From Bactericera cockerelli (Eukaryota > Arthropoda > Insecta > Hemiptera > Triozidae), in NCBI GenBank assembly GCA_024516035.1, contig CM044961.1, positions 18,729,374 to 18,793,373 of the forward strand: a stretch of DNA of 64,000 bases, in the 5' to 3' direction. The translations under genes and the position numbers were made by a program. Shown piece by piece: positions 30,294 through 61,143 of this stretch; the first letter of the stretch is position 1, and the number at the start of each line of letters is the position of its first letter. Below the pieces are notes generated by a model. That model made no database searches, was not told the DNA's origin, and worked only from the letters and a program-made list of their open reading frames with translations.

Positions 30294-30805
30294 ATCTTAC
30301 AGTGTAAACTGCTGTCATGTCCCGTCTAATGATTAAGTAATCTTATAGTGTGTAGACTGCTGTCATGTCCCATCTAATGATTGGATAATCTTACAGTGTG
30401 TAAACTGCTGCCATGTCCCATCTAATGATTGGATAATCTTACAGTGTGTAAACTGCTGCCATGTCCCATCTAATGATTGGATAATCTTACAGTGTAAACT
30501 GCTGTCATGTCCCATCTAATAATTGGGTAATCTTACAGTGTAAACTGCTGTCATGTCCCATCTAATGATTAAGTAATCTTATAGTGTGTAAACTGCTGTC
30601 ATGTCCCATCTAATGATTAAGTAATCTTATAGTGTGTAAACTGCTGTCATGTCCCATCTAATGAATGATTAAGTAATCTTCCGTTTGCAACTGCTGCCAT
30701 GTCCCATCTAATGATTAAGTAGTCATACAGTGTGTAAACTGCTGTTATGTCCCATCTAATGATTGGATAATCTTACAGTGTGTAAACTGCTGCCATGTCC
30801 CATCT
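30294..30805 (+). repeat. Minisatellite copying the VPS28 start region
   Basis: There are ten full units of 46-52 bp plus an eleventh partial unit that ends inside the VPS28 coding sequence. A unit begins ATCTTACAG, continues TGTGTAAACTGCTGCC, then ATGTCCCATCT, and closes with AATGATTGGATA. The last unit supplies the VPS28 ATG and the codons for Ser-His-Leu. Each upstream unit therefore repeats the same ATG TCC context, but stops after seven codons in frame. ATCTTACAG with a nearby CTAATGAT could act as a splice acceptor, which is inference. Confidence 0.95.
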
Positions 30806-31415
30806 GGACGAGCTGAAGTTGTTCACCAGCACCAAGGAGAGGGAGAAGTACGACAACCAGGCAGACCTGTACGCCGTCATTAACACACTGCAGAACTTGG
30901 AGAAGGCTTACATCCGAGACTGCGTCACACCCAAGGAGTACACAGCCGCCTGCTCCAAACTGCTGGTCCAGTATAAAGCCGCCTTCAAGCAAGTCCAAGG
31001 AGACGAGTACCAAAGTGTTGAGCAGTTCGTGAAGAAGTTCCGTCTCGACTGTCCCGCAGCTTTGGAGCGAATCAAGGAAGACCGCCCCATCACGATCAAA
31101 GACGACAAGGGCAACACATCCAAGTGCATCGCGGGCATCGTGTCTCTGTTCATCACCATCATGGACAAGTTGAGACTCAACATCAAGGCCATGGATGATT
31201 TGCAACCGGACTTGCTAGAGCTGAATGACACCATGAATCGGCTCAGTATTCTGCCGTCCAATTTCGAAGGCAAGGAGAAAGTGTCGGGCTGGCTGGCTAC
31301 CCTGGGCTCCATGTCGGCCAGTGATGAGCTGACGGAGACGCAGGTCAGGCAACTTATCTTCGACCTGGACTCCTCCTACAATGCTTTCAACCGGATTCTG
31401 CATCAGTCTATTTAA
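30795..31415 (+). CDS. Vps28: VPS28, ESCRT-I subunit
   Basis: VPS28 is the ESCRT-I subunit that links to ESCRT-II during multivesicular body sorting. This single uninterrupted frame of 206 residues covers the family's usual length. The N-terminal part ([49 protein letters not shown]) binds TSG101. Then come [20 protein letters not shown] and [20 protein letters not shown]. The C-terminal four-helix domain follows ([35 protein letters not shown]). The ATG at 30795 lies in the last unit of the upstream minisatellite. The N-terminus looks a few residues short, so either this is the true start or an upstream exon is spliced in. Codon use is GC-rich compared with flanking DNA. AATAAA at 31,774 is a possible polyadenylation signal. 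Confidence 0.96.
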
Positions 31416-33551: not shown

Positions 33552-34629
33552 ATGTTTGGTCAAACCACCCTCAACACCACCACAACCACCACCACCCCCA
33601 ACCCCAACAAAGACTTCGAGGTGGCCTCCCCCCCGGATGAGCCGTCTCCTGCCTCGCCTTCTCCCCCTCCACCCTCCCACAGAACTTCCTCATCGCCGGG
33701 TCCTGGGACAACAACGTGCGCTGCTGGGAGGTGGAGCCCAGCGGGAAGACAGTGCCCAAGTCCATGCAGGGCATGTCGGAGCCCGTGCTGGATGTGGCGT
33801 GGATGGACGACGGAACCAAAGTGTTCATGGCGGGATGTGACAAGACAGTCAAGTGCTGGGATCTGGCAAGTAACCAGAGCATCCAGGTCGCGGCCCATGA
33901 CGCCCCGGTGAAGACCTGTCACTGGGTCAAGGCGCCCAACTACACGTGTCTCATGACCGGCTCCTGGGACAAGACCCTCAAGTTCTGGGACCTGCGCAGT
34001 CCCAACCCCATCATGACCATCGCGCTGCCAGAGCGCTGCTACTGCGCAGACGTTGGACTACCCCCTGGCTGTGTGGGGACCGCCGCGCGGACGATCGTGC
34101 TCTACCAGCTGGAGGGCAAGCCGCAGGAATTCAAGAAGACAGAGTCCCCACTCAAGTATCAGAACCGCTGCATCGCCATCTTCCGTGACAAGAAAAGCAG
34201 CCGGCCGGGTATGGGCTGGGCAGTGTGGAGGGGCGGGTCGCTATCCAGTATGTGAACCCAGCCAACCCGAAGGATAACTTCACGTTCAAGTGTCACCGGT
34301 CCAACGGTGGAGCGGGCGGAGCAGGGGGGGTGCAGGATATCTACGCGGTGAATGGGATCGTGTTCCACCCGGTGCATGGGACGCTGGCGACGGTGGGAAG
34401 CGAAGGGACATTCAGTTTCTGGGACAAGGATGCGAGGACCAAGCTGAAACCTTCAGAAGCGATGGACAACAGCATCAGCACGTGCGCGCTCAACCACAAC
34501 GGACAGATATTTGCGTACGCAGTGAGCTATGATTGGTCGAAAGGTCACGAGCATAATAATCCCAACAAGGGAAACGCCATTTTCTTGCGGCCCTGCTTTG
34601 AAGAGATGAAGCCGCGTAGTGGCACGTAG
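33552..34629 (+). CDS. Rae1: RAE1 mRNA export factor (WD40), two frameshifts
   Basis: RAE1 (Gle2) is a WD40 propeller that binds the GLEBS motif of Nup98 and acts in mRNA export and mitosis. The ATG at 33552 opens MFGQTTLN, and [10 protein letters not shown] follows. After about 33,642 the protein continues one frame over with [38 protein letters not shown] and the WD repeats ([19 protein letters not shown]). Near 34,209 it changes frame again to [18 protein letters not shown], then [20 protein letters not shown] and a stop at 34,627-34,629. Both breaks are single missing bases beside G runs, everything else is well conserved, and there are no other stops. The whole gene lacks introns. It is either a nearly intact gene with two sequence errors or a very young pseudogene. 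Confidence 0.9.
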
Positions 34630-37260
34630 GTTGTTTATTATGGACTACTGATGATTTCCTCGTGTTTCAACAGTCCTAAGATGTTGCGTTTACTGATAAA
34701 CATGCTATGTTTACGGATTACTAGTCCGTTGTGTTTAATGGCGCTAGACTTGTAATGTAACTAATCGAGCGCATAAATGGATAGAACCCACCCAATGCTT
34801 TTTCCTCGTTTATTTGAGTACGTAACCACTGACCATATAATAGCAAGACTGAGTGTTAGGTGGTAGGAAATGCTTTAAGGTAACCTTCCACTGAAGGTAT
34901 TTTTGTATGTATTATGAATGAACATCTGGTTACTAATAATAGATATGTCCGCAAGTTCCATTTACTTGTAATAAAAAAAATAATGATAATTTTCAAGTAA
35001 CAATTACTTGACGGTACCCAGTCGCACTCAAAATCCATTCTGGGTCTTTTATTTTCTTATTTTAATTCAAAATTATTTGCTCCACTGGGTAGGCTCCATT
35101 GCCTTTGTCAGGAATTTATTAATAGTACCTACCATCATAGATATTTTTTCGTTTCATAATTTGTCAACCAAGCATTTATTATTATTCCCACTGTTGTAAT
35201 AATAGATTATTGTTTAGAATTTAGTGAACATTATACTTATTGGAGGTTTCGACGTGTTTAACTTTTCAAGAATTGATGAAAAAAAGAAGGGAACTAAATA
35301 AAAACACATTTCACATAAGTAGGTATAGTCTTCAATTACGGGGAAGTGAATTTTCTTTTTGTAAAAATATCATTGTATTGTTAATAAAATACTCAAGTTT
35401 CTTTTTTATAAAATATTATTTTAAAGAGTTCAATTTTTTTAAGTTTCCTAACACGCAAGTGAGTCCTCATGCTGGTTGTATACCTCAAAAGTTAGTATGA
35501 GTTCATAGGAACTATAGAGGTATTATATTATAATACATTTTATAGATTAAAAAAAAAAAAAAAAACAAACAGTTTTAATCTAGTTTATTAGGTGCATAGC
35601 TAACAGGTTAGGACTTACACCAATTACAAAATCTTTTGAAGACCTGTGATTGGTAATACAAAGTCAATGCCTGAACTAGTAGCCAGCATAAATGTTCATC
35701 TCGACCCAACCATATGGGTGACCCAGGCAGCTGTAAGAACCAGCTTTACATGGCAGTCGACCTCTGGAGTTCTACTTATTCATATTAAGGAGCGCCTTAG
35801 CACCTCACTCCGCAGTCAAAAAGTAAAGAGAATGCGTAATCGCCAAAACATAAATATGCAAGTTGGTAGGTAAAATATTTCGTCACAGGTACTCGACAAA
35901 CTACTGGAGAGAGACACTTCAAGATTCTGACGATTCTGTAATGTAATTTTCGGCGCTATCGACAGTTTAGTCACTTTACAATACAATACTCTGTTTATCC
36001 TATAAGAATGAGACTAAAATGTCCCTTTAATCTTCACAGTCACACTTATTTTTGCTAAAATTTCGACGAGTGGTTGATAAATAAATTAATGGAGGAAAGG
36101 GGTGAAGAGACTATATTTGTGACATCACTTAAATGTAGTGATGTCACCATGTGAACAAAATTCTTATAATTTTATCAAAGCTTACAAAATAGCTGAATAC
36201 TGCATAGAAAAGATTTAAGATCGTACAAATGCTAGGAAAATAGTAAGGACTTATGAATCCCATTTGAATACTCGTAGGTGTTACAAAAAAGGTAAATTCT
36301 ATTGTATTCCAATATGTTACAGCCATGTCATACTGGGTGTGTTAGCAGGATTGACACTTGATGTTCTCTTTAATATTTCCTGTGTCGAAATATTTTGATT
36401 TTGATGACGTCAGAGAAATGTTGGCCATGGTATCTATTGGCTCTACCGGTTGGAATTTCTGAAATAAGAAAGGTGGGAAACTGTTTATCTATATATATAT
36501 AATTATATATATAAAACTCAAATCTATGCTTGTCGTCGGACTATGTCCTTTTAATTTTGTCTGTTTACAATACCACAGACCAAACGGTAAGAGATAGAAA
36601 TATTTTCATGAGAGTTGACCCCCCCTAAACCACCGTCAAACTACCTAAAAAATTATCAAACTTAAAATATCTATTACCATTTTCCAGTTATCGGGATTTG
36701 ATTCAATAGCGAGAACGTGCCGTCACCAATTTACTACCCCATTAATTTCAGTTGTGAATCCTCACGGAATACTTCCCTCTCAGGTCGAAAGTCTCATGGA
36801 GACGATTTCTTTGAGTACAGTTCACAATGTGCAAAATTGGCAGGTAGGAACTATTCCAAAACCCCAAAATGTTTTCCCATCAGATTAATGATCAGAAGAA
36901 CACCAAGGGGAATGGCCTCGGGAGAGAATATGGTGGACTTGATCCAACTAATATCCTCCCCACATTGTGAACAGAGTAACACCAGAGACTTCATCATAGA
37001 TTCACTCTTGGTGTAACACCCTTTCAGTGGTGCTCCATATCTTGAAGAGGAGATACCCATCTCAAAGATACTTATTTATAGTGCCCAAAATTCCTGTCGT
37101 TTTGCTTGTATTATGGGCGACATTAATGTGAGTAACCGAGGGGTTCTTTTATAGAAGGTATAGGTAACTTTCTTAAATATCTGCCAAAGTTTCGCTGCTA
37201 TGATATATCTCAACTAGACGGTTCTCATCATTAATGCAATTTATACCTACTTAGTTATCG
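34630..37260. other. Gene-free stretch between RAE1 and the Rab gene
   Basis: This is AT-rich sequence without a supportable exon. AATAAA at 34,970 may end RAE1. The expected last Rab exon, with a prenylation motif, was searched for on the minus strand and not found. A minus-strand stretch at 36,850-37,060 with LVLLCSQCGED is discussed among rejected items. An interspersed repeat end (TATATATATAATTATATATA near 36,490) is followed by a patch at 36,520-36,700 resembling other dispersed repeats. Confidence 0.5.
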
Positions 37261-37268: not shown

Positions 37269-37821
37269 ATGAACGCGAGATATCTATTCTTCTCTTTTTG
37301 GATCCGTCTCTCTTTCTCTTTTCTCCCTCCCTCATTCTTTTTCTCCCTACGTCCCACGCGAGATATCTATTCTTCTCTTTTTGCATCCGTCCCTCTTTCT
37401 CTTTTCTCCCTTCCTCATTCTTTTTCTCCTTATCTCCCTTCGTCTCGCCCCTGCCTCTCACCTGCAGTCTTGTCTGTTCTCGTATGAGTCTCGCCAGAGT
37501 GAGGAAAGCCTCCTCAATGTTGATGTTCTGTTTGCAAGACACCCCGTAAAACGGGAGGCTGTAGTTCTCTGCAAGCTGTGGACCTTATCTATGAACGCGA
37601 GATGTCTATTCTTCTCTTTTTGCGTCCGTCCCTCTTTCTCTTTTCTCCCTTCCTCATTCTTTTTCTCCCTGCGTCCCTCTCCCGTCGTCTCCCCCCCTAC
37701 CTCTCACCTGCAGTCTTGTCTGTTCTCGGATAAGTCTCGCCAAAGTGAGGAAAGCCTCCTCAATGTTGATGTTCTGTTTGCAAGACACCTCGTAAAACGG
37801 GAGGCTGTAGTTCTCTGCAAG
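37269..37821 (-). repeat. Tandem duplication of about 246 bp covering a Rab exon
   Basis: Two tandem copies (37,462-37,575 plus CT-rich flank, and 37,708-37,821 plus flank) each contain one 114-nt Rab exon and the CT-rich sequence beside it (CTATTCTTCTCTTTTTG, CTTTCTCTTTTCTCCC). A third, partial copy of the CT-rich part lies at 37,269-37,370. Apparent open frames through the CT-rich parts are artefacts. Confidence 0.9.
37462..37575 (-). CDS. Duplicate Rab exon 5b
   Basis: This is a second copy of the 38-residue Rab exon, with AG before (CCACAG) and GT after (GTGAGAGG). It encodes [16 protein letters not shown] and continues [18 protein letters not shown]. It differs from exon 5a by Gly for Glu just before VSCK. 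It starts and ends in phase 0, so 5a and 5b could be mutually exclusive or both included. Which is used cannot be told from sequence. Confidence 0.8.
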
Positions 37822-40800
37822 CTGTGGAGCACAAGATAATGGTGATGTAATGGGACCAGATGGAGCAGATGTGAAGTGCCAACACAAGCGGTGGAAGAAG
37901 GGTAGGACCCCGATTTTATGAACTAATTGGGACCAAGGGCAGCTCATAAAATGGGGCTTTCCCACATTTTTTACAAACCAATTATTATTATGGTTTAGAA
38001 CACGCTGATTCTATTGGTGACATCCATTTTCAATTTAGGAATCGCAATCATTGAGAAAATTTCATTCGAAAATCGGAAAATTTGAAACACCCTAATTTTC
38101 GCGGGCATCCATTTTTGTTTTGATGACGTCAAGAGTATGTAAACAAAATTTTTGGAGGTTTGAAATACTACAGCTTCCATAGGTTTCTTCCATAGGTATC
38201 ACTTCAATGAAATTGATTTTTTTTAAGCCTTCAGTGAATGAAAAACAATAATTAATTGGTTATAAGTACTATCCTTGATACTATAGCTGACTATTACAAG
38301 AATTGTTTGTGGAACACGTTGTGAAAACAATGTGGAACACGTCCATTGAAAACGCGGTATTCTCTCTAGACTCCTCGAGTCTAGCTTGCCGATACTACAG
38401 TCGCGACCTTGTTAATTTCTATTTTCTGTTCTCGTTCTGTGAGAATTTGTGATTCGCAAAGGGCTCAAGATTCCAGCATATATTATACTGTCTGTCAAAA
38501 CCGGTTGCTACGATCGAGTTAGGATGCTGGGCCTTTGAACACTTTGCAAATTCACGTTTCACTTTCACAGAAGACTGATAATGTTGTTACTTATTGTTAA
38601 CACTCCCAATCTCAAAATAGCCACGTGTATACAATGCGAATCAATCACGAAGAAGCATTGTGTCCGTAATTGTTTTAAAACGAAAAAATGCAATACCCAA
38701 TACGAAGAATATTTACATTAGCGTAATATTCGATAGTCGGACGTAAAAAATCAATATAGAGATTCCTTTAATAAAATCTCTATATATAAATGAGAATATG
38801 TATATAAATGGCACAGAACTCCTCATTTTTACATAACACAATAACCTTGTATAGTTCGCAATCCAATAATGTTCAACTAAAACTAAAAAATTATCCTTCT
38901 CAGATTTACTTCGGTCAGCAAATCGTGGGGCTAATAATTACCAGTGATGAATTTTAAATTAAACCTAAGCGTTCCTAACCACGCTGGACGTTTCTTAACC
39001 AAAGCGAGCGATTGGAAGGCTGTCTGCACTTGAATTTGGTTTGCTAAGTACGTCTGCAGCACGCGTGAGATACACGCGTAAAATGAAGAAATTGGCCATT
39101 GTAAAAGTCCTTACTGCAGGTAAATTTCTACTGACAGCCTTTGTAATACCGTCATCTACTGATATTTTAGACATTGTTAGTTAACATTAAAGTTTAAAAT
39201 ACTGTATTAGAGTTAAAATTCACAAATCTATTACAGTTTTAAATCGACTCTTCACATTCAACTCTAATGTAATTCTACACACAAAATTCGAAGTAGCGTT
39301 TCAAAATTGTTTGTTTACATACTTTTGACGTCACAGCGTAGGCGACCAATCAGATTGCGTTATTTCAAGGAAGACCTTTGGAGAGCCTTTTCATCCCTAA
39401 GGAATGACTTTTTTAATTTTTGGACATCAAAATCGTGTTCCTCGGGTCTTTTTACATTTGAATCAATCATCTGCTGGAAAAAAATTGTCATTTGGGAAAG
39501 CCCCATTGTGGCTCAACTGAAGTAGTAAATGCTCCCTAAGGGCCGAACTATAAAATTGGATTAGAGTTAAAATAAGCCAGACTGTTCCTCAAGTGCGTTG
39601 TGATTGGTTGAACCTCCGACTTGAGGACGTGTCCTGCTCATCTTAATTTTGATCCTGTTACATAATTTGGTCCTAATACAGGGTGAAAGAAGAAGAGTTA
39701 GAAGGTGTTATTATGTTCTAACACAATCTATGCCAGCAACCTTTATGTCTCGCCGGTTCACTGATGCTATTATTAATATTTATTACCGACTAGCGGGCTG
39801 CACCCGCTTCACCGAGCCATCACACACACACCACCCATACATCACACACACACACACACACACCACCCAAACATCACACACACACACACACATACAAACA
39901 CACACACTCCCCCCTACTCACACCCACCCACATACACACACACACCCAAACACCACACACCCACAGCCACAATACACCATACACACAAAACCGTCATCGC
40001 TGTACATTTCAAAATCCCGAGCCAAATCTATCATAGCGGATATTGATAATGTATCAAACTGGCCTATATTTCGAGAACGGATCGTCAGAATATGGCATCA
40101 AAGAGCATGTCAATGCATGTGATGTTCTCAGACAGTTTTTTACAATAAAAAATAAGAAACTTAAAAATAAATTTTAAGTTCCGCGCTGGAATCTGTTAAA
40201 AACCGTGAAAATTTTGAAAAAAAAGGTCGAAATTTCGAACATTCTGGCCTATACGAGTATGTGTCCTAAAATGAATCAAATGAAAGCTAATTTGGTCTAA
40301 TGTGTTATTAAATAGGTAATGAAAAATATAGGTCATCGCGACAGATTTCAAGTTCCAGGGCAAATACTGTCTTAAAATCGGACCCTTCGTCAAGCCAATA
40401 CCTGAGGAAGGTCATAACTCAAGGACGGTTTGGAATTTTGGACTTTTGAAAGTGTTCCTGGTATCGTACGGCAATTTTATTTGAGGTCGTCTCTCATCTC
40501 TTACCGTTTCGCCTAAACAATTCCGGACACACAAAGAAACAAAGATACAAAGCCCAGCCCGTCCATATTTCTCATTTATATATAGGGATAATAATATAAG
40601 TTTTATAACACAGCACCAACAAGGGATTGTGAGAAAATCGTCAAGTCAGTTCAGAGCGGATATTACTAAACTTGTTATTGTTTGGGTAGTCTGCATGAAG
40701 TATTGAAAGCATTGGTGATTGGACTGTTAAATTCTAGTTAAGTGAGTAAGACTATGTTATTGTGGGAAATCTATGAGTTCATCGATTGTATACGTTACAT

Positions 40801-43800
40801 CGTGGATACACTCTTACTAATAGCTCTATTTAGGTACTTGAGGTTCTTGGTATACAGAAGGATAAAATATAAATTCTCTTTAGGAGTCTACAGTTCAAAC
40901 AGATTTTAATATTTTTACGAATTGAAGTTTTCCCAGCTACACACTGATCATTGTGGAGCTGACTATCTGGTCCTGCATGGGTGCTCTTATTTTTTATACA
41001 GGGTCCGCCAAAAAAAAGCCACTCGAAATATCTAGAGAACGAATTAAAATTTTGGGAAAATCTAAAACACTTGTACGTGTGCATTATTTATTTATTTTTA
41101 AATTAATCCATTCTCTAGTTATTTTCAGTGGCTCCTCTTTTTGGCAGACACTATTTAATAAAAGTCTGCACTAAATCTCTGTCTGTGTGTGCTGGCTTAT
41201 TGAAAGAACGAGGACAAATCTCTTACCATCTGTGCGTCCTTGGTCTGGACTGCCCTCTGAGCCTTTACATCACATTTGTTACCCGCCAGAACTTTAACCA
41301 CGTCCGGAGAGGCGTTCTGTTGAAGAAAATGAGAGATAAATTTTATTATAAACCGGAAAACAAATTGGAAAGTTAATAATACAGTCGAATCTAGATATAA
41401 GAGAAACTTGAATATCCTGAAATGTATCAGTTACTTTTATCTACCACCTGGTTTTATTAATGTATTTTTATTTTTATAAATTTTTCAATCATTCATTTAT
41501 ATCATGTACCATTTATATGATATAGCATACATAAAAGAGTGTATACTCAAATGCTTAAAATATAAAAAAGAGAACGATTTCTAGGTCAAATTTATCTATT
41601 TATAAGGAAATACAATAATAAATTATCTTCATTATAAGAGAGAAAAAAATTCGTCCTGGCCTTAAAGTTGCTATTCCCCCAACGCGTCTCGCTACTGCGA
41701 GCGCGCCTGTCTCTTCTACTGATGACCCAGAAAGCATCAGGCAAAGTCACCCCATCGAAAATTCACTGAAGAAGTGTTCTTTTTTCTAAGTGGGGTTTAA
41801 CGTCGCTTTCAACTGCCATGGTCATATCACGACGGGGGTTTTACCCTCCATTCGCAGGAAACTCACAAACCTGCTACTCACATTGACCTCACCCAGCCTG
41901 AGTGGGGCCGGGAAAAGCCAGCGTCACGAGAATTTGAATGGTCACCCATCCAAGTCTTAACCTCGCTGGATGTCGCTTAACTTCGGTGTTCTGAAGGGAA
42001 CCGGTGTATTCAACATGCCATCGACGGACGCTGGCGAAGTGTTCTTTATCTGAACTCAGACGCGGTCGTGAGAGGCTTACGAGCAACTAACACATTTAGA
42101 GCAGAATTAATAGAGGTTTTTGTAATACCTTTGTGGTGTTAAGTCACGGATTGCGTACTGTGTAAGATAGGGAAAACCGACACTTAGTAACGACTTAAGT
42201 TATTGATGTTGTCTATTAATTCCGCCCTTAGAGCGAAATCAATAGACGTTTTTGTTATACCTCTATGTATTAACTCTAGATTTTTCGAGACATACATTGT
42301 TTTAAACGGGGAAACTAATGCTCAAGTTCAAACTTGTGATCACGATTTTGTCTATTTATTTTACCCTCAGTGTAATTTCCACCGAGGCTATATCAGATAA
42401 TTAAAAATAAGGACCCAGACTTGGACGTAGTGCATGCTAGTATTTTCCTGGTTCAGGACTAGTCTGTGTGATGGCGCGCGTTGGTGTAGCGAACGCCTGC
42501 TTATTTCTTTCCGGGTTGACAGCAAATCTCCGCTCGACCTATACCAAATCATATAATAGGTGCCGGTTCCCTTCCGGAAGGACGGTCCCTGGAACAAGTT
42601 TTTATATTTAATAAAACATATCTACATTATTAATTCATCAGAAAAAAATAGGTGTCGAGCTGTGCTTAGGCCCTTATCTTATTTCGGTCTTATACAAATC
42701 ACTGTCGGCCTGGCAAAGTTGGTACTCTCGGCAGTCTTACCTCTTCAATGTTCTTCAGCCAGTAGTTCAAGTGCTGGAAGGACTCCATGTTGGTGACGTC
42801 ATACATGAGGAGAATGCCCATGGCCCCCCGGTAGTAAGCTGTGGTGAGAGTGCGGAATCTCTCCTGGCCCGCTGTGTCCCTGGGGATGGAAGAGGAATCA
42901 TTAACACATTGGCATCCATGTCACCCTTATAAGGGTGACAGTGTCGGTCCGCCGTGTTCCAATCGTTCCATGCTTCTCAGGATGATATTGAGGTGTCATC
43001 CTTCAAAGGGTGACAGGAACATGGAGAATTTATAGGAAAATTTTGACTGGATATCATCGTCTTGAACTTTGATTCCTATTATGAAATATCAATTTACGAT
43101 TTTTTCAACAGATGTGAGACTATAATAAATAATACATATCAATAATGAAATTATTAATAAAAGGAGCAATAACTAATCATTATTAATTATTACTTATTAT
43201 TTATTTTGTGTTTATCCCAATCGTAATATCACATTACTCAAACTTGCTTTACTAAATTTTTGCTTAAATGGGAAATTGAGCCACCGACCTCCAGATTACA
43301 AGAAGTACGCCGCCTGGTCCATCAAGCTTGTGAGCTCGGTGATTTATTATTTAATGAAAAATGTTTGTTTTACGTTAGAATGCTTTCCCAAATTTCCATT
43401 TTTGTGTTTGAACTTACCAGATCTGTAGCTTGGTAGGTATCTCGTCCAAATCTATAATCTTCTGTTTAAAATCTATTCCTGAAAAAAAAAGGATTTGATG
43501 AAAGTCACATTAAAGTAAGTAGAATATATAAATAAAATAATATGATGTAGTGGTGTTATATTTATGCCTTCTGTGTAAAAATAAATAAATGCGAACGCAG
43601 TTTTACAATCTGGTCAAATATCCTAATAAAAGTAGGTACATGCTTTACTCGGAATTTAAACACACGACAACCCCCAGGGAGAATCTCCAGGAGACGAATG
43701 CCTCAGACCACTCCACTACGACCTTCACAATTCTATTCACACTGATTAAAATATAGGGGTAGTTTTTTTGTTGCCCTCGCTTTCAACTGCATGGTCATAT

Positions 43801-44509
43801 ATCAAGACGGAGGTTTTACCCTCCATTCGTTGGAAACTCACAGAGCAGCTACTCAAATAATCTCACCCAACCTGATGAGTGATGGCGCCGGGAATTGTCA
43901 GCATCATGAGGGTTCGAATTTGAATGGTCACTCATACAAGTTATAACCTGGCAGGATGTTGCTTCACTTCATTGAGGAACGAGAACTGTTTGTTGTATTG
44001 AACGTGCCGTCGCGTCGCTCATCGACGCACGCTGTCTAAAAATAGAGTTTAGTTGTTGGTGCTGGCATGAATGTTAAGAACTACTGCCTGCTGATGAAAG
44101 TTAATTAGCCACAAACAGCTGTACGGCAGGTATGTATAATATGTACTGATACCTACGTGTATGGCCTAAATTTTAATAGGTAGGTTACAAAAAATTACTC
44201 GTTGATCTAATAGAACTCATTTTTCTGTTTATACAGATTTTCTGATACAAAAATGAATGTGTGACTTGAAATATACCTACCGGTACCGCCATCGTGACTC
44301 AAATGAAGTGTGTCTATTTTTACTAGATATATGTACTTACCTATGGTTGAAATGTAAGTAATTTTTACTAGATATATGTACTTACCTATGGTTGAAATGT
44401 AAGTATCGTAGTATGTTTCATCGCAAAATCTGTGCACAATACAAGTCTTCCCCACATTGGAGTCTCCTAGAACCAGGATTTTGTAGATCTGATTACAGTC
44501 AGCCGTCAT
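37708..44509 (-). CDS. Rab GTPase, insect RabX4-like, C-terminal exon not found
   Basis: Rab GTPases switch vesicle traffic between GDP and GTP states. The exons are 44509-44386, 43478-43418, 42879-42741, 41316-41227 and 37821-37708. All have GT-AG borders and compatible phases. Seen in order: [25 protein letters not shown] (G1 P-loop), YISTIG with the G2 Thr, [38 protein letters not shown] (G3), VLAGNKCDV (G4) and [16 protein letters not shown] (G5 SCK). The [17 protein letters not shown] stretch is like the insect RabX4 group, which I give as likely, not certain. The hypervariable tail and prenylated Cys are not visible. The exon 1 donor is tandemly duplicated and exon 5 is duplicated. Confidence 0.87.
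37943..39515. mobile_element. Probable 1.6-kb element with diverged inverted ends (Rab intron)
   Basis: AATGGGGCTTTCCCA at 37,943 returns inverted at about 39,515. Matching inner phrases include ATGACGTCAAGAGTATGTAAACA against its complement near 39,310-39,335. The arms are about 220 bp and diverged. The middle has a further inverted pair near 38,450 and 38,560. No transposase was seen, so it is a non-autonomous element. Confidence 0.5.
39789..40590 (+). repeat. Dispersed repeat beginning CTAGCGGGCTGC, with CA-rich insert
   Basis: The start (GACTAGCGGGCTGCACCCGC) resembles the repeat at 55,105 (CACTAGCGGGCTGTCGCCCG). The right end (CACACAAAGAAACAAAG, then ATTTATATATAGGGATA) has the look of a common arthropod interspersed repeat. 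From about 39,828 to 39,990 the sequence is CA-rich microsatellite. No protein was recognised. Confidence 0.5.
40999..41150. mobile_element. Foldback MITE (Rab intron 4)
   Basis: ACAGGGTCCGCCA and GCCACTCGAAATATCTAGAGAA on the left pair, with mismatches, with TTCTCTAGTTATTTTCAGTGGC and TTTTTGGCAGACACT on the right. It lies about 75 bp from the donor end of Rab exon 4. Confidence 0.65.
41783..42030 (-). mobile_element. 5S rRNA-derived SINE, best copy (Rab intron 3)
   Basis: On the minus strand the head reads CATGTTGAATACACCGGTTC, then CACCGAAGTTAAGCGACATC and GACTTGGATGGGTGACCATT. These are recognisable 5S rRNA sequences including the internal promoter end. The body follows (CCGGCCCCACTCAGGCTGGG, AATGGAGGGTAAAACCCCC, GTCGTGATATGACCATGGCA, GTTGAAAGCGACGTTAAACC). 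This is the layout of SINE3-class elements. Confidence 0.9.
42083..42262. repeat. Dispersed repeat with AATTAATAGAGGTTTTTGT motif
   Basis: Two related motifs (GCAGAATTAATAGAGGTTTT and GCGAAATCAATAGACGTTTT) flank a stretch with CGGATTGCGTACTGTG and TTAAGTTATTGATG. Related copies occur at about 18,105-18,195 and 29,700-29,815. The class is unknown. Confidence 0.5.
43768..44033 (-). mobile_element. 5S rRNA-derived SINE (Rab intron 1)
   Basis: This copy has the same body as the 41,783 copy (CTTTCAACTGCATGGTCATA, GGTTTTACCCTCCATTCG, TCACCCAACCTGATGAG). The 5S-derived head is diverged (GTCACTCATACAAG, GCTTCACTTC, AACGTGCCGTCG). Confidence 0.8.
44317..44405 (-). repeat. 45-bp tandem duplication at the Rab exon 1 donor
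   Basis: Two near-identical 45-bp units lie across the exon 1 border. Each holds TACATTTCAACCATAG followed by GTAAGTACATATATC, so the splice donor exists twice (GT at 44,385-44,384 and at 44,340-44,339). Use of the distal donor would add 15 codons in frame without a stop, right after the switch I motif YISTIG. Confidence 0.93.
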
Positions 44510-46068: not shown

Positions 46069-46305
46069 TAAGTGGGTTTAACGTCGCTTCACTGCCATGT
46101 CATATCACGACGGGGTTTACCCACATTCGCAGGAACTCACAACCTGCTACTCAATTGACTCACCCAGCCTGATGGGCCGGATAGCAGCGTCACGAGAATT
46201 AGAATTGAATGGCACCCATCCAAGTCTTAACCTCGCTGATGTCGCTTAACTTCGTGTTCTGAAGGAACGGTGTATTCAACATCCATCACGCTGGCTGTGA
46301 TGTTG
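46069..46305 (-). mobile_element. 5S rRNA-derived SINE with collapsed homopolymers
   Basis: The copy follows the 41,783 copy phrase by phrase, but doubled bases are repeatedly single: GTGGGTTTAACGTCGCTTCA, GCCATGTCATATCACGACGG, GAACTCACAACCTGC, GAAGGAACGGTG. More than ten such losses occur, nearly all in runs of the same base. This pattern is typical of long-read sequencing error, though old decay is possible. Confidence 0.85.
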
Positions 46306-51363: not shown

Positions 51364-53562
51364 CAGGGTGGACCAAAAAAACGTTTACACCCGTTAATGG
51401 TAGATTACTGGCGACATTTCTAGGACGGATCTGCAATCCGTTTTTTCGGATTCGCCTTTATAACTGCACAAAGTGATTTTTTGCAACTTTCTGAAAAAGT
51501 CCGACTTTGGCTTATTCTTCAGGTCAGAACTTTTTTCCTGTTTAAGATGAGTTGATTCTGAACATTTCTGCAGAAAGCCAACAAAATTTCGATGTTTCTA
51601 GCTAAACTACTTTGTTTTTTACGGTTTGGTTTGGCATCTTTTTTGACACCTGAATAGAAAAAAAATTCTCATGTAAATTTTTTACGCTTTGAAACACTCA
51701 AGATTTGCCCGAGCAAATTTTGGCACAGACATGGGCAAGTTTGATAAAAGTTGGCGGCCAACCCAAGGATGCTAAAAAATAATTTTACGATTTTTTATCA
51801 CGTGATCTTCTGGGTAAACAAACCAGGTAAGTCTCAAAAAATGATGTTCAAAATCTTAAAAGTGTTGACCGTGTAGGGTCGTCTTGTACTCAAAGAGTAA
51901 TTAGCTATTTATGTCTGATAATTATTTTCCTTGGAATTAATTAAAGGCCAGTCAAATGAATGATTGTTTGTTTCTCGATGATAGTTTTCAAGCATATTTT
52001 TCTGCATTCTATGAAATATTATCTTTAAACTTCTTGAGTTTTTTTTAGTACAAGTTACATTATTATAATTCGGATGCTGAAATGGCAGATACGCATTTAG
52101 CATATGGAGTTGCCAACAGGAACATTTGAGATCACGTGAAAAACATAGTTTACGAAATCTGGTAGCAAGAATCCTGTTGGCATTCGATGACCTGACAGAA
52201 AAACCTGGAATCTTCCGCAACATTCGACGGAACATGATGAAGAGGTTCAACCTTTGCATCCAGGAAGGTGGACTCCACTTCCAACAGTTCCTCTGAGGGA
52301 ATTGAGAAGGGACTAGCTTACCACTGAGCTAATCGTGCGCGTCTAATCGTTTCTCATTGAACATACTAACACAAAATGTTTTTTTTAAATACCTTTTTGT
52401 TTATATCAAAATAGTATAAAACATAATAAAGACTGCATAAGTTTATTAATTTCACAAAATATTATCTTGTTTTTTTCAAGCCTTCTATTAAGAGTTGGCA
52501 ATCGGTAAATATTTGTTATTTAAATAGTATTGTTTATGATAGAAGAACCTACCTACATATTTACCTGGATTTATTTCATAAACTCTATTTTCGTTTGGAA
52601 AATTCGCTAGTTTTTTTTTTTCTCTCGTAGGGAAGCATAAAAAAACCATCCTTACATTATCAAGGCAGTCTCTCAGGGCTTACATGAATAATAATTATGT
52701 CTATTGTGATACCAATAGTATCTGATATAACTCAATTTACCGATGGTTTTACCCCAAAAAAAAAACCATAAGTTGTTGGTGTTACAACAGGTCAGATACA
52801 GATATGAATAAAATATTCCATCAGATTTTTTTGATAGTTAAAATAATATTGACCGTCGAGCATTGAACCTCGGTCATGCGACTAACACTCTAAGCACTAC
52901 CACATCTAGCTAACACCACTGACAATCTGAGAAGCACGAAATTTATCATTTGAATTTTCCTAAACTGGCTGATGAAGGCATGTGAGACCGCGGTATTCAA
53001 AAAAAGCAATGTAAACAATTTTCGTAAACAATACAAGACGCCCTTACACAGTCTACAGCTAGAAAACTCTTAGGATTTTTGAAGAGTTTTTGGCAAACAT
53101 CTAATAATTTTTCCCAGAAGATCACGTGATAAAAAATCGTAAAATTATTTTTTAGCATCCTCGGGGTGGCCGCCAACTTTTATCAAACTTGCCCATGTCT
53201 GTGCCAAAATTTGTTCGGGCAAATGTCGAGTGTTTTATTTAGTAAAAAAGTTTTTTTGGGTGTTTTTTTCTGTTCAGGTATAAAAAAATATGACAAACCA
53301 AATCGTAAAAACAAAGTAGGGTAGCTAGAAACATCAAAATTTTGTTGGCTTTCTGCAGAAATGTTCAGAATCAACTCATCTTAAACAGGAAAAAAGTTCT
53401 GACCTGAAGAATAAGCCAAAGTCGGACTTTTTCAGAAAGTTGCAAAAAAACACTTTGTGCAGTTATAAAGGCGAATCCGAAAAAACGGATTGCAGATCCG
53501 TCCTAGAAATGTCGTCAGTAATCTACCATTAACGGGTGTAAACGTTTTTTTGGTCCACCCTG
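51364..53562. mobile_element. 2.2-kb mariner-type element with ~450-bp inverted ends
   Basis: The left end (CAGGGTGGACCAAAAAAACG) is repeated inverted at the right (GTTTTTTTGGTCCACCCTG), and both are flanked by TA. The arms extend to about 51,818 and from about 53,114, nearly identical over about 450 bp. They include GATCTGCAATCCG, TCAGAACATTTCTGCAGAAAG complement pairs and the CACGTGATCTTCTGGG motif at the inner ends. The core holds only a transposase remnant. Confidence 0.9.
52129..52296 (+). pseudogene. Mariner-type transposase C-terminal remnant
   Basis: The plus-strand frame reads SREKHSLRNLVARILLAFDD, LTEKPGIFRNIRRNMMKRFN, then CIQEGGLHFQQFL and a TGA. This is the usual end of insect mariner-related transposases (PGIF, RR, GG.HF). 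No DDE motifs remain, so the element cannot move itself. Confidence 0.7.
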
Positions 53563-53574
53563 TATAATAACTTC

Positions 53575-54375: not shown

Positions 54376-57300
54376 CTAATACTTGGCACTCTGTGACTCC
54401 CTCCTCTTGTCTGGCTCCCCCCTCTCCTCTTCCAGAGGGTGTATGGGCGTGACGAACATGATCTCGGGGGTGGTGACTCGCACGCTGGGCGCACTCTGCA
54501 GCCTGGGGGGCGTCATGCTGCGTGAGGACTGGATGGGGGACAGGGGGTGGGGGGAGAGGGTCACGTGATAGGAGATGGGCGGGGCGGAGTTCAGGGTAGA
54601 GACGTCCAGGGAGAGGGTGCGAAATCTGGAGCTGAGGAATTGAATTGGAAAGTAAAGTTTCAAATTAGTACGCCATCATTGCAGCCCTCAACTAACGACA
54701 GCTGAAGTCCTCACTTAAGAGAAGAAAATGTTTCCCTGACTTTAATAGTCCAAATAACTTCAGCACTGGAGCTGAGGAATTGAATTGGAAAGTAAAGTTT
54801 CAAATTAGTAATCCATCATTTCAGCCCCTCGACTAACGACAGCTGAAGTCCTCACTTAAGAGAAGAAGATGTATCTGTTCCCTGACTTTGGAGTCCAAAT
54901 TACTTCAGCACCTACTCCATGACGCAATTATCTCACCACCGTGATATTGCTATGTGTCCCTATCTTACGGACACGGAATTATTATTATAATTACCTATGA
55001 ATAGTTCTGTATTTAATGATGAATGGCGCTGAAAGACCGAAAGCACAATGTATATTTTAAATATATTTCATATATTTACGGTTGAAATTCATTTATATTA
55101 AACACTAGCGGGCTGTCGCCCGCTTTGCGGGCCGAGGCATGGCCGTGAAAGCAAAAAATCCTTTTTCGCCAATGGCAGGTGTTGTAGTGGGAGTTTCGAA
55201 AAATCCCGTCTTATTGCACATCTAGACTATAAGACAAAGCTACCTACCAAATTCAGCTTCCTAGGACTTACGTTTGGGCTGTAGAGCGATGATCAGTCAG
55301 TGGTCAGTGGTCAGTGAGTGTCTTTGACATTTATATATTAAGATTAGAAGAAGAAAAAATCGTGTTTAAAATAGAAAATAACCTGGTGAGCAAGGGGGAC
55401 GAGGGCAGGGACTGTCGCTGTAGGGGGGACGCCGCTCTCTCCTTAGGGTCCACAGGAAAGCAGGCCACGTCATGCGAGGCGCAGAGAGACTTGATGGAGC
55501 CATAGGGTTCCAGCACAATGAGGGAGCCTGTACTGCTGGCTTGCATCAAGTGACTCATGCTGAAATTGGGAAGAGTCAAAATGCTTGCAGCCGTATTTAT
55601 GAACAGAAAACGCCGTTTGAGCATGGCCCTGAAGCATGATTTCCTTTAATATTATTGGCCAATACCTTGCTTGAGACAGTGCTCAGACAAAATTCGCTGT
55701 TCATAATACGGGTGTTAATGGCCGGGTGGAGACTCGACTGCTGGGTCCCAGCTCATCCAGATGTAGTGCCACGTGATCAATTTGGAACTCTATGATTGGT
55801 AGAAATTGATCACGTGACGCTAAATCTATTCGACCCGGCCAACTGACCATAAATGACTCGCGGACTCTGCTGAAAATTGTGAAGAGTCAATGCTATAATA
55901 AGAAGTGGACTCTGGCCACAGGCAAGCGCGGTAAAATCTGTTTGACCAAGCCTTTTGTTCAATTTCTTGTTTGTAGTTTTGTCCCTGTATGGTGAGAAAA
56001 ATCTATTCTCCGTATATCTTGTGTCGTAGTTAAGTCCCATTTCTGTGTTAGGTCCGTAGGTCTACCTATTTTGTAAATAAATTACACAAATCCAAATTTA
56101 ATCATTTCCCAAAATCCATGTTACTTCTCGTAATGCCGCCACTGGTCGCTATTCATACAAATAGCTACTGATTTGTCTCATGTGGCATGAGTGGACCCGG
56201 ACATCCAATACAGAGAAGAACTTTTTTGCGCTGCGAGGGATCGAACCAGGTCACCGTGCCAGTGTGCTAGTCACGCGGTCACGGTGACTACTGATCAGTG
56301 ACTTTGTGCCTCTATAAATTCAATTGATCAGATATCCGCATCGTTCTGACACTTGTAAGCATTGTAGACACATTGTCCCGGTAGCTCAGTGGTATAAGGC
56401 GGCACTCTGTGAGTCCAGAGAATCCAGATGTCGTGGGTTCGAAACCCAGCCGGAATAATTATCCTCCCATTTGGGGATTTTTACCACATAATAATATGTC
56501 TTGGGCTTACTGCTGAAATAATGGGAATTTAATAGTCTTAATCGGCAGTATAAATAAGGCGATATTATTATTATTATATTGTACTTACGTAGGAGATGGT
56601 GTAGGGACTAGGAAAGGTACGGGTGTAGGACAAGGGCTACCCTTTGCAGCAGGGACAGTGGCTAGCGAGCTGCGGTTACTTGAATAGCGACTAGTACCTA
56701 TATGGGACAAGACAGTTGAAATCTGTTGAAGATTTTTTCAAGTGACAGTCTGTATAAGTTATAAATTTCTAAATGTAAAACTCAAAGAAAAACATCAGTA
56801 TATTATAGTTTTTTTTTAAATTTATTATTTTAATTCGTGATTTTTAAAGAAAGGATAAAATCAAAAATAAAATTTAGATATTGGAAGTACCAATATTTAA
56901 ATTTTGATTTAATGAAAGTTTTGTTTATCTCATTGACTTTTTTTGTAAAACCCAGCCACGTTAAGGTCCTACATAATTTTTTCCTGGCCCTACTATACAC
57001 CTTACAGTCTATAGACCTAGCTATAGGCATGGCCTTATATAAAAATTATTTTTACTTACCCCATATGCTCTACACCCAAGGTATTGATTGCCCTACATGT
57101 GTTACCCAACGGATTCGCTGGGCAAAAACCCAACTACTCCAATTCACCCCACCCAGCTTGAGTGGGTCCAGGAATAACCACAAAACGTGGATACTTGTAT
57201 GACCATGGGTGGATTTGAAACCAGAACGGTCACCAGAACAAAGCGGACATTCGCGCTATGTCCGCTTCCTGCTCCTAGCCGTATCCAACAATAGCGTTAT

Positions 57301-60300
57301 TCTAGCGTGTCTTTATAAAGACAGTGGCAGAACTGCTTAGTCATTCCTCCACTGTCTGGCTACTATCGTTTACGATGATGACGATTCAGTTTTATTTTAA
57401 AGTGTTGGAGAAAATTTTCATAGTTTTTCCGGGAAAACTCTCTCAAGGTTTTCGAAATTTGTCAGATTGAAGTCAACTTTGGTTTTTCAAAGTTGAGAAA
57501 GACAGCAGAGAGATATGAGTGGAGAGCTGCCAACCAATCCTCGAATTGAGCATGATGATGATTTTTGCACAGCATTACACGAGACTCCACAGGATCATAA
57601 TATACATATTTACATAATTATGTAATATGAGTTGTGGTGCACGTGCGTGCGAGCGGTTTTTGCATCCATCTAGGAAGTTTCAAATCGGATATATAAAAGT
57701 TTCAATATTTTCTCAAATAAAAATAGTCAGATTTTTGATAATTCCATGAAAATGATCTAATTATGTACTCGCCAAATTTATTTCAGTTTTGGTCATCTGC
57801 TTTTTTTTGTCATACCTACCTACTTTCAATTTTATTCAAAAAAATAAACACACCATAAATTTTATCGTAAAAATAAATTTCTCCCTAACTCAGTTGGAAA
57901 CTTGGAATAATGTCTCCAAATTTCGACGCAGTCAGGATAGTCATAAAAAAGTTAAAAGTTGAAAAGGATCAGGCTCTTTGCGAGAACCAAGTATTACAGA
58001 ACGGCTTGAATCAAACGAAAAAAAGTATCCGTCATTTGGAATGTGTCAATGACCAGCTAATTCTGGAATTAGAAACTTCTGATGAGACAGAAAGGAAACT
58101 AAAAAACGAGACTGATCGATTAAAAAGTTGTTTATCTAGTAAAAACAAAGAAATTGTTTGTCTTCAGAAGCTAAATAATGAAATTGAGGAACTTGAAGAG
58201 GCTATTTGTCAATCAAAAAGTAATTTGTGCTGTGTTAATAAAAGAAATGCTAAATTAGAAGAGCACGTTGCCAAATTAGAAATGATCACTAACGAAAAGA
58301 ACAAGTTCATATGCCACCTAGAACAAAGTATGGCTGACTTGGATAGTGAAGTGTGTAAAATGAAGGATGCGATCGAACATTTGCTTGAAGAAAATAGATG
58401 TCTTAAGTTAGATAGTAAGAATTGTGGACACGACGTTCAGACAGCCATTCAATACTTAGAAAGTCTTGGTGCTAAACAAGAAGTATGTGAATGTACGAAA
58501 AGGAAGTTACAGGAACAAATAAAGCTTGTACAGAGAACTCTCGATTGTAATCATGATGCACTTCTAAGAGAAAAAGCTCTCAATAGTGAACTGCACTTAC
58601 AAATCAACATTTTCCAGAATCAGAAGAACAAACTTAACTTGGAAAACTTGGACCTCCATCAGAGGAATCGGAAAGCAATTGTGAAAATAGCGTCCTCCAA
58701 CAAGCGGTTGAAGAGGTGTCAACGCAAGTATTATCAACTTGAACGTGAATATCAAAATTTTAAGAACTTTATTGAAGATTTCAAGACAGAGTTCGTTGCA
58801 AATATTCAAGATGATTGTTTGATATGTACCATAGAGCGTTGCAACACGAATGAATAGTCTCATGATGTATAGATTAAACAATAGGTACTTCGTCTTGATG
58901 ATGACTGCAAAATTAGGTAAAAAACTTATTGTATCATGAGAATTTTCATCAAAAAGTACAATTTCTATCAATGTAATAAATAATAGGGTCTTTATTTATC
59001 CATGTTCTCTTACTGTGTGGACACTGAATAACCTCATCTGGGGACAGTTCCAAGGTCAAGTGATCTTTCTGGTCCTCCGGGCCAGACTTCTTCCAGCATG
59101 GGAAACAGGAGAGGATCTCGCGGTGTGTAGGATGATGCTTGAGGTCCTCCAGTACTAAAAAAAAATTGAATTGGAAAATCAGTTGAATCTACACCTAAAA
59201 TAAAATCACTCATACATAAGCAATGTGGCTCAAAAATTATCACTTTTGGAATCTTGAAATATAGAATATACCTACCTAATATTATTATTTCTCTCGCCAT
59301 GAATTTCTTCCAATGAATTTCTAATATTAGAAATCGGAAGTATTGTGTTCGTTTTTTTACATGGTATGATGGTATGTAAAAAAATATACATGATACTCTC
59401 TTCTTTACTTGAATTTACTACCATAAATATTAAAGTACCTTATCAGTTAATGTTAAGGCTGGAGAAAAAATGTCGGCCAAAAAGCCAACACCGGCGCCAC
59501 CAATTTCAACGAAAAGTTTCGTGTCCCATCCTCCATCTGAATGAAGTCTACATGTCAAATTTCAAGTCTAGCTGACACGGTTCTAGAGATATTTTGGTTT
59601 ACAGAGAGACCGACCGACAGACACACAGACCAAAGACTGAAACTTCGGTTTTCGGTCTGGGAACCCTAAAGAAGAGAAAGACCTCCTCAGTTAACGTGAA
59701 GGCTCAGAAAGGTTATATTTCTCAACGTGAAGAAGAAATGTAAGACTGTCCAGCTGTCCACTCCCCAGCCCCACAGTGTACTTACACGAACTCTTCCTGG
59801 ATCCAAGATGGTTGAGGCTCAGGGGAAAGAAGTCCCCGTGCAAGGGACAATGGAAAGCTATCCTGGCCCCCACATTCTCCCTGGACCTCTTCATCAGATA
59901 CCAGAGCACCACACTGAGCGTCCACATGAGGAGAGCTATCAGGATACAGGCCGGACCCAGGATTTTGGACTGCTCGGTTTTGGACTTGTCAGAGGCAGAA
60001 GTGATGCTGAGAAGTTTGCTGGTGACGGTAGTATCGTTGGTGGTGGTGTCTGTGAACTTCAGTTTGCTCTCGTACATGCCGCGATATGCTGTGACTGTGG
60101 GGAGAATGACGGGTGAGTAGATATGCTGTGACTGTGGAGAGAATGATGGGTGAGTAGATATGCTGTGACTGTGGAGAGAATGACGGGTGAGTAGATATGC
60201 TGTGACTGTGGAGAGAATGACGGGTGAGTAGATATGCTGTGACTGTGGAGAGAATGACGGGTGAGTAGATATGCTGTGACTGTGGAGAGAATGACGGGTG

Positions 60301-61143
60301 AGTAGATATGCTGTGACTGTGGAGAGAATGACGGGTGAGTAGATATGCTGTGACTGTGGAGAGAATGACGGGTGAGTAGATATGCTGTGACTGTGGGGAG
60401 AATGACGGTGAGTAGATATGCTGTGACTGTGGAGAGAATGACGGGTGAGTAGATATGCTGTGACTGTGGAGAGAATGACGGGTGAGTAGATATGCTGTGA
60501 CTGTGGAGAGAATGACGGGTAAGTAGGTATGCTGTGACTGTGGAGAGAATGACGGGTAAGTAGGTATGCTGTGACTGTGGAGAGAATGACGGATAGAGAA
60601 TGACGGAGAGAAGTACCTACTCACTTGATTTGATTTCTGAGGGCAATGACTTTAAGAGAACAAAGAAGCCTTGGCACCTCCTAAACTAACTCAAAATAAA
60701 TGAATTAAACCTTCCATTTACATAAAGTTGTCTTGGTCGTTGTGATCCCAATGTCACCTATTAAGCCACAGGTTCAAAGCCCGTCCGCGGATTATAAATA
60801 TATTTCGGCATTTTTGACTTGATATTTGCTTTCATATTTGGAACTTTTATTCTGTCTTCCATTTTGGGACAATAGGGCATCAGTACCTAGTTAAAAGTCC
60901 CTCTCAGAAGAGAAAGCACGAGCCACCCAACAAAATGATCTCCTCAACTTACTCGTTAGAACAATGCCAATGAGCATGAAGATCAGCCCGAACGCCGACA
61001 GGGTCTTGGAGCAGTTGTGAGAGATGGGAATGCCTGCCATTGTGAAGGCCAGAAGTTCATGTCCCGAGCGTGGCAGAAGAATGGTCTGGGGAGGCGGGCA
61101 GTGAGGGGGATCCGTACCGTCGACGTTGTAGATGCTTTGAGAC
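54376..61143 (-). CDS. Two-TM protein, TMEM200-like layout; first exon missing
   Basis: Six exons chain on the minus strand: 61143-60953, 60094-59786, 59154-59014, 56697-56589, 55559-55383 and 54631-54376. Every junction keeps phase, giving about 393 residues. Two membrane segments flank a Thr-rich loop: TLSAFGLIFMLIGIVLTITA and KILGPACILIALLMWTLSVV. After KRSRENVGARI come Cys-containing HCPLHGDFF and SCFPCWKK, then a long Ser/Pro-rich cytoplasmic tail (SSRFRTLSLDVSTLNSAPP, TPPRLQSAPSVRVTTPEI). Two close membrane segments plus a long disordered tail resemble TMEM200-type proteins. That is inference from layout and the KxLGP motif before TM2. The fifth exon has a weak donor (CAG then GTTATT). 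The exon upstream of 61,143 is not found. Two acceptors are tandemly duplicated. Confidence 0.75.
54628..54908 (-). repeat. 140-bp tandem duplication at a splice acceptor
   Basis: The sequence CTGGAGCTGAGGAATTGAAT and the following 120 bp occur twice, offset by 140 bp (acceptor-adjacent base at 54,631 and at 54,771). On the minus strand each copy ends in AATTCCTCAG then CTCCAG. The acceptor of the last exon of the two-TM gene is therefore present twice. Confidence 0.92.
55100..55345 (+). repeat. Dispersed repeat beginning CTAGCGGGCTG
   Basis: The start CTAGCGGGCTGTCGCCCGC, the middle AAGCTACCTACCAAATTCAG and the end with CAGTGGTCAGTGGTCAGTGAG then ATTTATATATTAAGATTAG form a type common in arthropod genomes. 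A related start lies at 39,789. No coding content. Confidence 0.55.
56100..56300 (-). mobile_element. tRNA-derived SINE, family D
   Basis: On the minus strand GTGACTAGCACACTGGCACG and CTGGTTCGATCCCTCGC (B box) are followed by AAGTTCTTCTCTGTATTGGA and GACCAGTGGCGGCATTACGA. The tail phrase also appears at 25,745-25,800 and AAGTACAGAACTTGCTGTTC at 26,070 is similar. Confidence 0.65.
56376..56578 (+). mobile_element. tRNA-derived SINE, family B, copy 1
   Basis: The head TCCCGGTAGCTCAGTGGTAT carries the A box and GTGGGTTCGAAACCC the B box. The body has CTCCCATTTGGGGATTTTTA, CACATAATAATATGTCTTGG and TATAAATAAGGCGATA, and the end is an (ATT)n tail. The inverted copy at 62,318-62,526 has the same body and tail. 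It ends 11 bp from the exon at 56,589 of the two-TM gene. Confidence 0.88.
57060..57235 (-). mobile_element. Degraded 5S-derived SINE
   Basis: The phrases GGATTCGCTGGGCAAAAACC, TTCACCCCACCCAGCTTGAG and ATGACCATGGGTGGATTTGA follow the family body in order with many changes. The head is barely recognisable. Confidence 0.55.
57910..58857 (+). CDS. Intronless coiled-coil protein, nested in an intron
   Basis: An ATG at 57910 opens 315 codons without interruption. Nearly the whole protein is predicted coiled coil by heptad-like Leu/Ile spacing (VIKKLKVEKDQALCENQVLQ, LKNETDRLKSCLSSKNKEIV, LEEHVAKLEMITNEKNKFIC). It has about 15 Cys, unusual for a coiled coil, and a short non-coiled C-terminus with DDCLICTIERCN. 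The layout resembles centrosome or sperm-tail proteins such as Cep135/TSGA10, but no specific motif proves this. It lies inside the intron between exons 59014 and 56697 of the minus-strand two-TM gene. AATAAA at 58,975 gives a short 3'UTR. It is probably a lineage-specific gene, perhaps testis-biased (inference). Confidence 0.8.
   Translation: MSPNFDAVRIVIKKLKVEKDQALCENQVLQNGLNQTKKSIRHLECVNDQLILELETSDETERKLKNETDRLKSCLSSKNKEIVCLQKLNNEIEELEEAICQSKSNLCCVNKRNAKLEEHVAKLEMITNEKNKFICHLEQSMADLDSEVCKMKDAIEHLLEENRCLKLDSKNCGHDVQTAIQYLESLGAKQEVCECTKRKLQEQIKLVQRTLDCNHDALLREKALNSELHLQINIFQNQKNKLNLENLDLHQRNRKAIVKIASSNKRLKRCQRKYYQLEREYQNFKNFIEDFKTEFVANIQDDCLICTIERCNTNE
59500..59685 (+). repeat. Interspersed repeat family R, 3' fragment
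   Basis: GTCAAATTTCAAGTCTAGCT, GAGATATTTTGGTTTACAGA and AGACTGAAACTTCGG match the right part of the copies at 4,838 and 25,180. Confidence 0.65.
60085..60600 (-). repeat. 37-bp minisatellite copying a splice acceptor, 14 units
   Basis: Fourteen tandem units of 37 bp (one of 36) start at 60,085 and then every 37 bp. On the minus strand a unit reads TCTACTCACCCGTCATTCTC, then TCCACAG, then TCACAGCATA. The first unit is the real border of the two-TM gene exon (exon starts at 60,094), so every unit carries the same pyrimidine tract and AG. The minus strand has no stop in any frame across the units. Confidence 0.95.
60601..60952. other. Rest of the intron beside the minisatellite
   Basis: This contains a tRNA-like patch (GTCGTTGTGATCCC, CACAGGTTCAAAGCCCGTCC at about 60,735-60,790), possibly another SINE head. 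Nothing else was recognised. Confidence 0.45.

Follow-up and report, generated by a model that had tools for sequence, protein, structure and literature searches.

Tandem repeats that lie across the ends of coding exons may be there by accident, or they may belong to a particular kind of gene structure. This question is raised by a stretch of 64,000 nucleotides from the psyllid Bactericera cockerelli (assembly GCA_024516035.1, contig CM044961.1, positions 18,729,374 to 18,793,373 of the forward strand; hereafter the window), in which an original prediction reported five tandem duplications at borders of three genes: VPS28, a Rab gene, and a gene for a protein with two transmembrane (TM) segments. 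Tandem Repeats Finder (TRF) and a repeat search confirmed all five arrays, and each of them overlaps a coding border. In four of the five, the exon-side edge of the array lies 6–20 nt inside coding sequence (11 nt for VPS28, 20 nt for the Rab donor, and 6 and 12 nt for the two-TM acceptors). We propose, with a probability of roughly three in four, that these arrays are minisatellites of the type named “mirages” in amphioxus. A short stretch across an exon-intron junction (for VPS28, the junction between untranslated region (UTR) and coding sequence (CDS)) would have been duplicated in tandem, and slippage or unequal exchange would then have expanded the array. Of the copies, the one attached to the rest of the exon would be used, and the remaining copies would be spare intronic splice sites, most of which are probably ignored.

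The Rab gene (RabX4/Rab8-like, minus strand), whose protein is 95% identical to a Diaphorina citri protein, carries two of the arrays. Exon 1 (44386–44509) ends in a 45-bp duplication present in two copies (44316–44405, TRF), the unit of which comprises the last 19–20 nt of the exon, the donor and about 26 nt of intron. The copies match at 100% in TRF, and at 44 of 45 positions in another register. The two donors, 45 nt apart, are identical in local sequence (ATAG/GTAAGT, the stroke marking the end of the exon), so that nothing nearby directs the choice of the spliceosome between them. The unit is in frame and stop-free, and use of the distal donor would add 15 codons, as judged by eye. The array at exon 5 (37273–37828; TRF and repeat search) consists of a 246-bp duplication of 1.9 copies with 92% matches (37356–37828) and a nested 83-bp duplication (37273–37429). 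The complete exon is found in both copies of the larger duplication, each time as 114 nt with an acceptor and a donor. Copy a (37708–37821, FYEVSC) has the stronger acceptor score and copy b (37462–37575, FYGVSC) the weaker, with the donor as in copy a. Exon 5 is not the last exon of the gene; the D. citri protein P0121 allowed us to locate downstream a C-terminal exon 6 (...NIKCQSC) at 36345–36458. Intron 4 of the same gene holds a CA-rich microsatellite region (39810–39987, TRF).

Two further arrays are at acceptors of the two-TM gene, also on the minus strand, for which a protein search matched three proteins, two of them from psyllids. The last acceptor is within a duplication of about 140 bp in two copies (54626–54911), with 6 nt of exon in the unit; it is absent from the TRF list and was recovered by the repeat search. 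An internal acceptor lies in 13.8 copies of a 37-bp unit that includes 12 nt of exon (60083–60592, TRF), and CACAG is kept in all 14 units found. At the borders occupied by these arrays the D. citri protein P0241 reads ...VLTITAYRG... (internal) and ...LLTSSRFRTL... (last acceptor), as expected if splicing uses, at both arrays, the acceptor copy attached to the exon. For these two window arrays the orthologue thus agrees with splicing at the exon-side copy, as our proposal would have it.

The fifth array is a plus-strand minisatellite of 10.8 copies of a 48-bp unit (30286–30805 or, in another delimitation, 30291–30805; TRF), which ends 11 nt inside the single-exon CDS of VPS28 (30795–31415). 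This CDS was the sole match in the genome search, and its product is 87% identical over the full length to D. citri VPS28, the best named match. The start sequence ATGTCCC is present 11 times in the array, the last copy being the real start at 30795. This start codon is considered sound because two unnamed proteins close to the window VPS28 have MSHLEEL as N-terminus. In each of the 10 spare units, the copy of the start codon opens a reading frame of seven codons followed by a stop, with the peptides MSHLMIG/K, MSRLMIK, MSHLIIG or MSHLMND. If transcribed within the 5' UTR, these ten spare starts would be upstream start codons. The predicted overlap with a border therefore stands for VPS28, as an overlap with a start-codon border and not with a splice border: the coding part is intronless, and a 5' UTR splice acceptor in the array may be retained as putative only.

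The first alternative to consider is chance, i.e. ordinary minisatellites of a repeat-rich genome that overlap borders and were spotted because the reader looked at genes. Tandem arrays are common in this assembly (565 Mb, 1032 contigs): in the flanking 200 kb we found 38 of them, covering 6.9% of the non-N bases, and arrays cover 3.6% of the window. We compared the window arrays with random placement, using 64 borders from nine gene models built by hand, with the duplicate exon 5b of Rab included. Five of the seven clear non-microsatellite arrays are on borders versus 1.46 expected (P=0.0026), and when four weaker arrays are added the result is 5 of 11 versus a mean expectation of 1.70 (P=0.011). 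These P values are post hoc, as the pattern was first noticed within the window. With a later pipeline the window gave 62 borders and eight exon-facing array edges, four of them 6–20 nt inside exons.

Protein kinase exons provided a sample from the whole genome. The kinase domain was searched by Pfam (134 rows), and exons with internal domain ends were picked by hand. Rows were chosen before their sequence was seen, and most near-duplicate and stop-containing rows were skipped. Fifty-seven exon loci were retrieved (2, 20, 20 and 15), the final 15 once the initial 42 had been through the analysis; 55 were analyzed (L082 and L083 were left out), and removal of four near-duplicates (L041, L075, L076 and L077) left 51 loci, with 72 scored borders. 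Eleven of these borders, four acceptors and seven donors, lie inside tandem arrays, with units that extend across the splice site and include bases of both exon and intron. There are 28 exon-facing array edges, and 11 of them fall 1–64 nt inside the exon versus 2.84 expected from uniform placement (P=4.9e-5). Eight are at most 25 nt inside the exon (1.09 expected, P=8e-6), 11 are within 25 nt on either side of the border (2.19 expected, P=4e-6), and a single one is 25–200 nt outside (7.66 expected, P=0.0015). The edges inside exons are 4 of 11 for acceptors and 7 of 17 for donors; when the near-duplicate loci are retained, they are 12 of 29. First-look analyses, now superseded, had given 13 of 80 borders in 42 loci with a looser choice, and 10 of 22 edges inside exons for a hand-pruned set of 60 borders. 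The predicted border overlap beyond chance, for which the post hoc placement test in the window gives a hypothesis only, is thus supported by the edges in the kinase sample.

Some of the kinase arrays are long. With flanks added, they reach at least 31 (L052) and at least 38 (L060) acceptor copies and about 40 donor copies (L055), and extended arrays such as those of L043 and L055 terminate within flanking DNA. L037 has a 7-copy acceptor array and a 6-copy donor array at opposite ends of one exon, with different units. In L046 (C11:8291032–8292423, minus), the intron after the kinase exon holds a second array with an 87-nt period (about 995–1171 in transcript orientation), which contains an exon piece with a donor. 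As a hint only, the length of donor units is frequently divisible by 3 and their frames are open (L043, L055 and Rab; partly by eye).

Splice-motif triples were counted in the whole genome. The donor motif CAGGTAAGT, repeated three times at a spacing of 20–45 nt, gave 205+355 = 560 overlapping matches on the two strands versus 6+0 = 6 for the reversed motif used as control. Counted singly, the motif and the reversed motif each occur 3 times in 264 kb of this genome. These numbers are overlapping matches, not arrays, and placement at exon ends was not part of the count. Both the edge excess among kinase exons and the donor triples argue against chance as an explanation of the arrays, and we consider it improbable.

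Several points nevertheless weigh against our proposal. The coverage of borders by arrays, 11 of 72 (15%), is no higher than that of the intron within 575 nt (about 18%, with looser settings), as chance would have it; the excess concerns where array edges fall, not border coverage. This intron coverage close to kinase exons is itself higher than in the flanks and the window, and arrays may thus favour genes generally. The kinase test deals with a single protein family, its borders come from a simple splice score, and 22 of the 94 nominal borders were dropped for weak scores, the threshold removing the L027 donor and the L038 acceptor, though L027 carries a donor array. Since the first-look edges were known when the zone limits were chosen, its P values are optimistic, and the 13 later-added loci gave just five edges, one inside the exon and one within 22 nt outside. 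The first 100 of the 560 donor-triple matches form nine clusters, all on C1, and three of the nine share a 48-nt spacing. Three copies of the acceptor pattern TTTTTCAGG gave 44 matches in the whole genome versus 44 for the control, and an excess of triples was rejected for this acceptor form. This null result counts against a general statement about acceptors, though the degeneracy of acceptors and the T-richness of the motif make the test a weak one. The units of the 38 arrays in the 200 kb around the window are no richer in splice motifs than shuffles, and these arrays were rejected as splice arrays. A concentration of duplication at exon borders, as originally claimed, is therefore seen in the kinase edges and in the genome-wide donor triples; it is not seen in the flanking units or with the acceptor pattern.

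Another explanation is that arrays originate uniformly, that exonic ones are purged, and that border-crossing ones survive with one intact junction, the conserved exon copy possibly preventing their loss. It accounts for array-free exons and for the presence of permitted border-crossing arrays, which would survive because the exon-attached copy stays intact. Without a survival bias, however, edges should be equally frequent just inside exons and along the same length of intron, and 11 were seen versus 2.8; at 25–200 nt outside the exon 7.7 edges would be expected, and there is one. A peak at the border does not follow from tolerance alone, and requires either seeding at this place or longer persistence via the conserved exon copy. 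We regard uniform origin followed by such survival as unlikely, although it keeps some weight. As for the first step of our proposal, we give about even odds to the seeding of duplications at junctions, as opposed to survival bias or selection. Two young two-copy events (Rab donor and L046) have 1–3 bp of extra matching sequence at their joints. Slippage between repeats already in place would account for the matches in these two cases less well than break-and-fill-in end joining. Expansion into many near-identical copies is what minisatellites ordinarily do. A more ambitious idea is that, in this insect lineage, a process tied to transcription or splicing seeds tandem duplications at exon-intron junctions. 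Gene structure would then ordinarily include rapidly changing arrays with tens of intact splice sites, and these would continually supply additional exon ends, duplicated exons and upstream start codons. This idea is tentative, and we lean somewhat against it.

It had also been suggested that selection favours the extra splice signals, which could act as redundant splice sites or in regulated alternative splicing. In 10 splice arrays an anchor search found 106 units, the used copies included, and all 106 keep AG or GT, as selection would predict. In the longer retrieved arrays the splice dinucleotides show 3 changes versus 11.7 expected at random adjacent positions, and this difference is not significant (permutation, P=0.08). 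The raw counts look strong (2 of 324 positions changed when the putative VPS28 site is omitted and L058 left unscored, 6 of 346 when VPS28 is included), and conservation of the spare dinucleotides was dropped as a claim on account of the permutation result. Many arrays are too young to tell, and we attach little probability to selection of this kind.

Could the arrays be an artefact of the assembly? The reason first given against it, that the units differ in sequence, does not hold for the Rab donor, the copies of which match at 100% in TRF, and the assembly does hold near-duplicate kinase loci. The conclusion that the DNA is real is better supported by near-copies with unequal copy numbers. 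In three pairs of gene near-copies, about 91–96% identical and separately placed, related array units recur in different numbers: 7 versus 3 copies at the acceptor and 6 versus 3 at the donor for L037 and L084, 11 versus 2 close units at the donor for L027 and L085, and 9 versus at least 7 copies for L043 and L077. Alleles and paralogues are both possible for these pairs. A protein model from a second psyllid, Cyamophila willieti, shows a similar repeat: in its Rab model (P0122), the end of exon 5 is repeated where D. citri has one copy, and this would be a donor-side repeat of the exon that is duplicated in the window. An assembly artefact is accordingly very improbable. L085 has, in addition, a diverged related array that is about 78% alike. 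Several kinase exons have a counterpart row of equal or nearly equal domain range on their own contig, at a distance of about 70–530 kb and in either orientation, and such paired rows may be unpurged haplotypes or segmental duplications.

The arrays can be compared with a few systems known from other organisms. Mirage minisatellites of amphioxus were reported in Adh3, globins and troponin C, and also in PGBD5; their units are 10–160 bp, copy number varies between haplotypes, splicing is seemingly normal and the origin is unclear (PMC3087553, PMC3902484). Like the psyllid arrays, they are tandem repeats across exon-intron boundaries, at the 5' or the 3' side, with splice signals in many units. 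Three corresponding features are found here: boundary-spanning repeats at the Rab donor, the two two-TM acceptors and the 11 kinase borders; both boundary types among the latter; and AG or GT in every unit found in the 10 arrays mentioned above, with 3 changes in the longer retrieved arrays. Copy number varies between near-copies, which may be alleles or paralogues. The VPS28 array, which spans a start codon, is wider than the mirage definition. By its anatomy the phenomenon appears to be the same as in amphioxus and is thus not new in kind. Mirages concern a few genes of cephalochordates with splicing reported as normal, whereas the present host is an insect, 11 of 72 kinase borders are involved and the use of splice sites is predicted. 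Unlike mirages, the psyllid arrays have up to about 40 copies, a measured excess of edges at the border and one start-codon case. The insect host, the abundance, this edge excess and the start-codon case are what is new. No insect case was found among the literature matches listed, as judged from titles and the starts of abstracts, with subscription journals outside the coverage.

Tandem duplication has also been linked to intron gain. In potato RdRp and in near-intron pairs of Drosophila, introns are described as gained by tandem duplication of AGGT-type sites (PMC4974935, PMC2891723). As in the psyllid, this is local tandem duplication at exon ends that involves splice signals. It makes a new intron from exon sequence, whereas the psyllid arrays copy an existing junction with its intron. 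The arrays could then mark the birth of introns through tandem duplication of a proto-splice site (AG/GT), an origin proposed for amphioxus mirages (PMC3087553) and, by duplication, for some Drosophila introns (PMC2891723), or they could stem from mobile Introners. Their units, however, hold intron as well as exon sequence, those of L037 differ between the two exon ends, the L043 and L055 arrays end within flanking DNA, and each inspected border array has its own unit. Intron birth or Introners are hence quite improbable here. Internal tandem repeats are also described as altering human genes in segmental duplications (PMC2812944); minisatellite expansion alters gene structure there as in the psyllid, but in recent human paralogues.

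If our proposal is confirmed with annotation and RNA sequencing, the arrays would provide many natural experiments on the choice of the spliceosome among identical sites. They would also offer a tractable insect system for a phenomenon known from a few amphioxus genes, and new introns and exons might be built from them. Where such arrays lie on borders, models of psyllid genes may contain errors; the C. willieti Rab model seems to be an example.

Other elements were noted in the window. An intronless Rae1-like (WD40) reading frame at 33552–34629 (+) is seemingly broken near 33640 and 34200, as judged by eye, and could be a pseudogene, a retrocopy or the result of assembly indels. A 5S rRNA-like match (Rfam 5S, 56.5 bits) at 41916–42031 (−) is within a dispersed repeat, of which similar stretches were seen by eye near 46070, 43770, 8070 and 9430; it looks like a short interspersed element derived from 5S. 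Two larger elements were also recognized by eye: one at about 26560–28220 with long inverted ends and a reading frame that looks like a Tc1-like transposase, part of it internally inverted, and one of about 2.2 kb at about 51366–53567 with long inverted terminal sequences starting ACAGGGTGGACCAAAAAAACGTTTACACCC. Finally, a 51-bp two-copy tandem repeat (20224–20325) lies about 250 nt past the stop of a lunapark-like reading frame (named by eye), probably in the 3' UTR of this gene.

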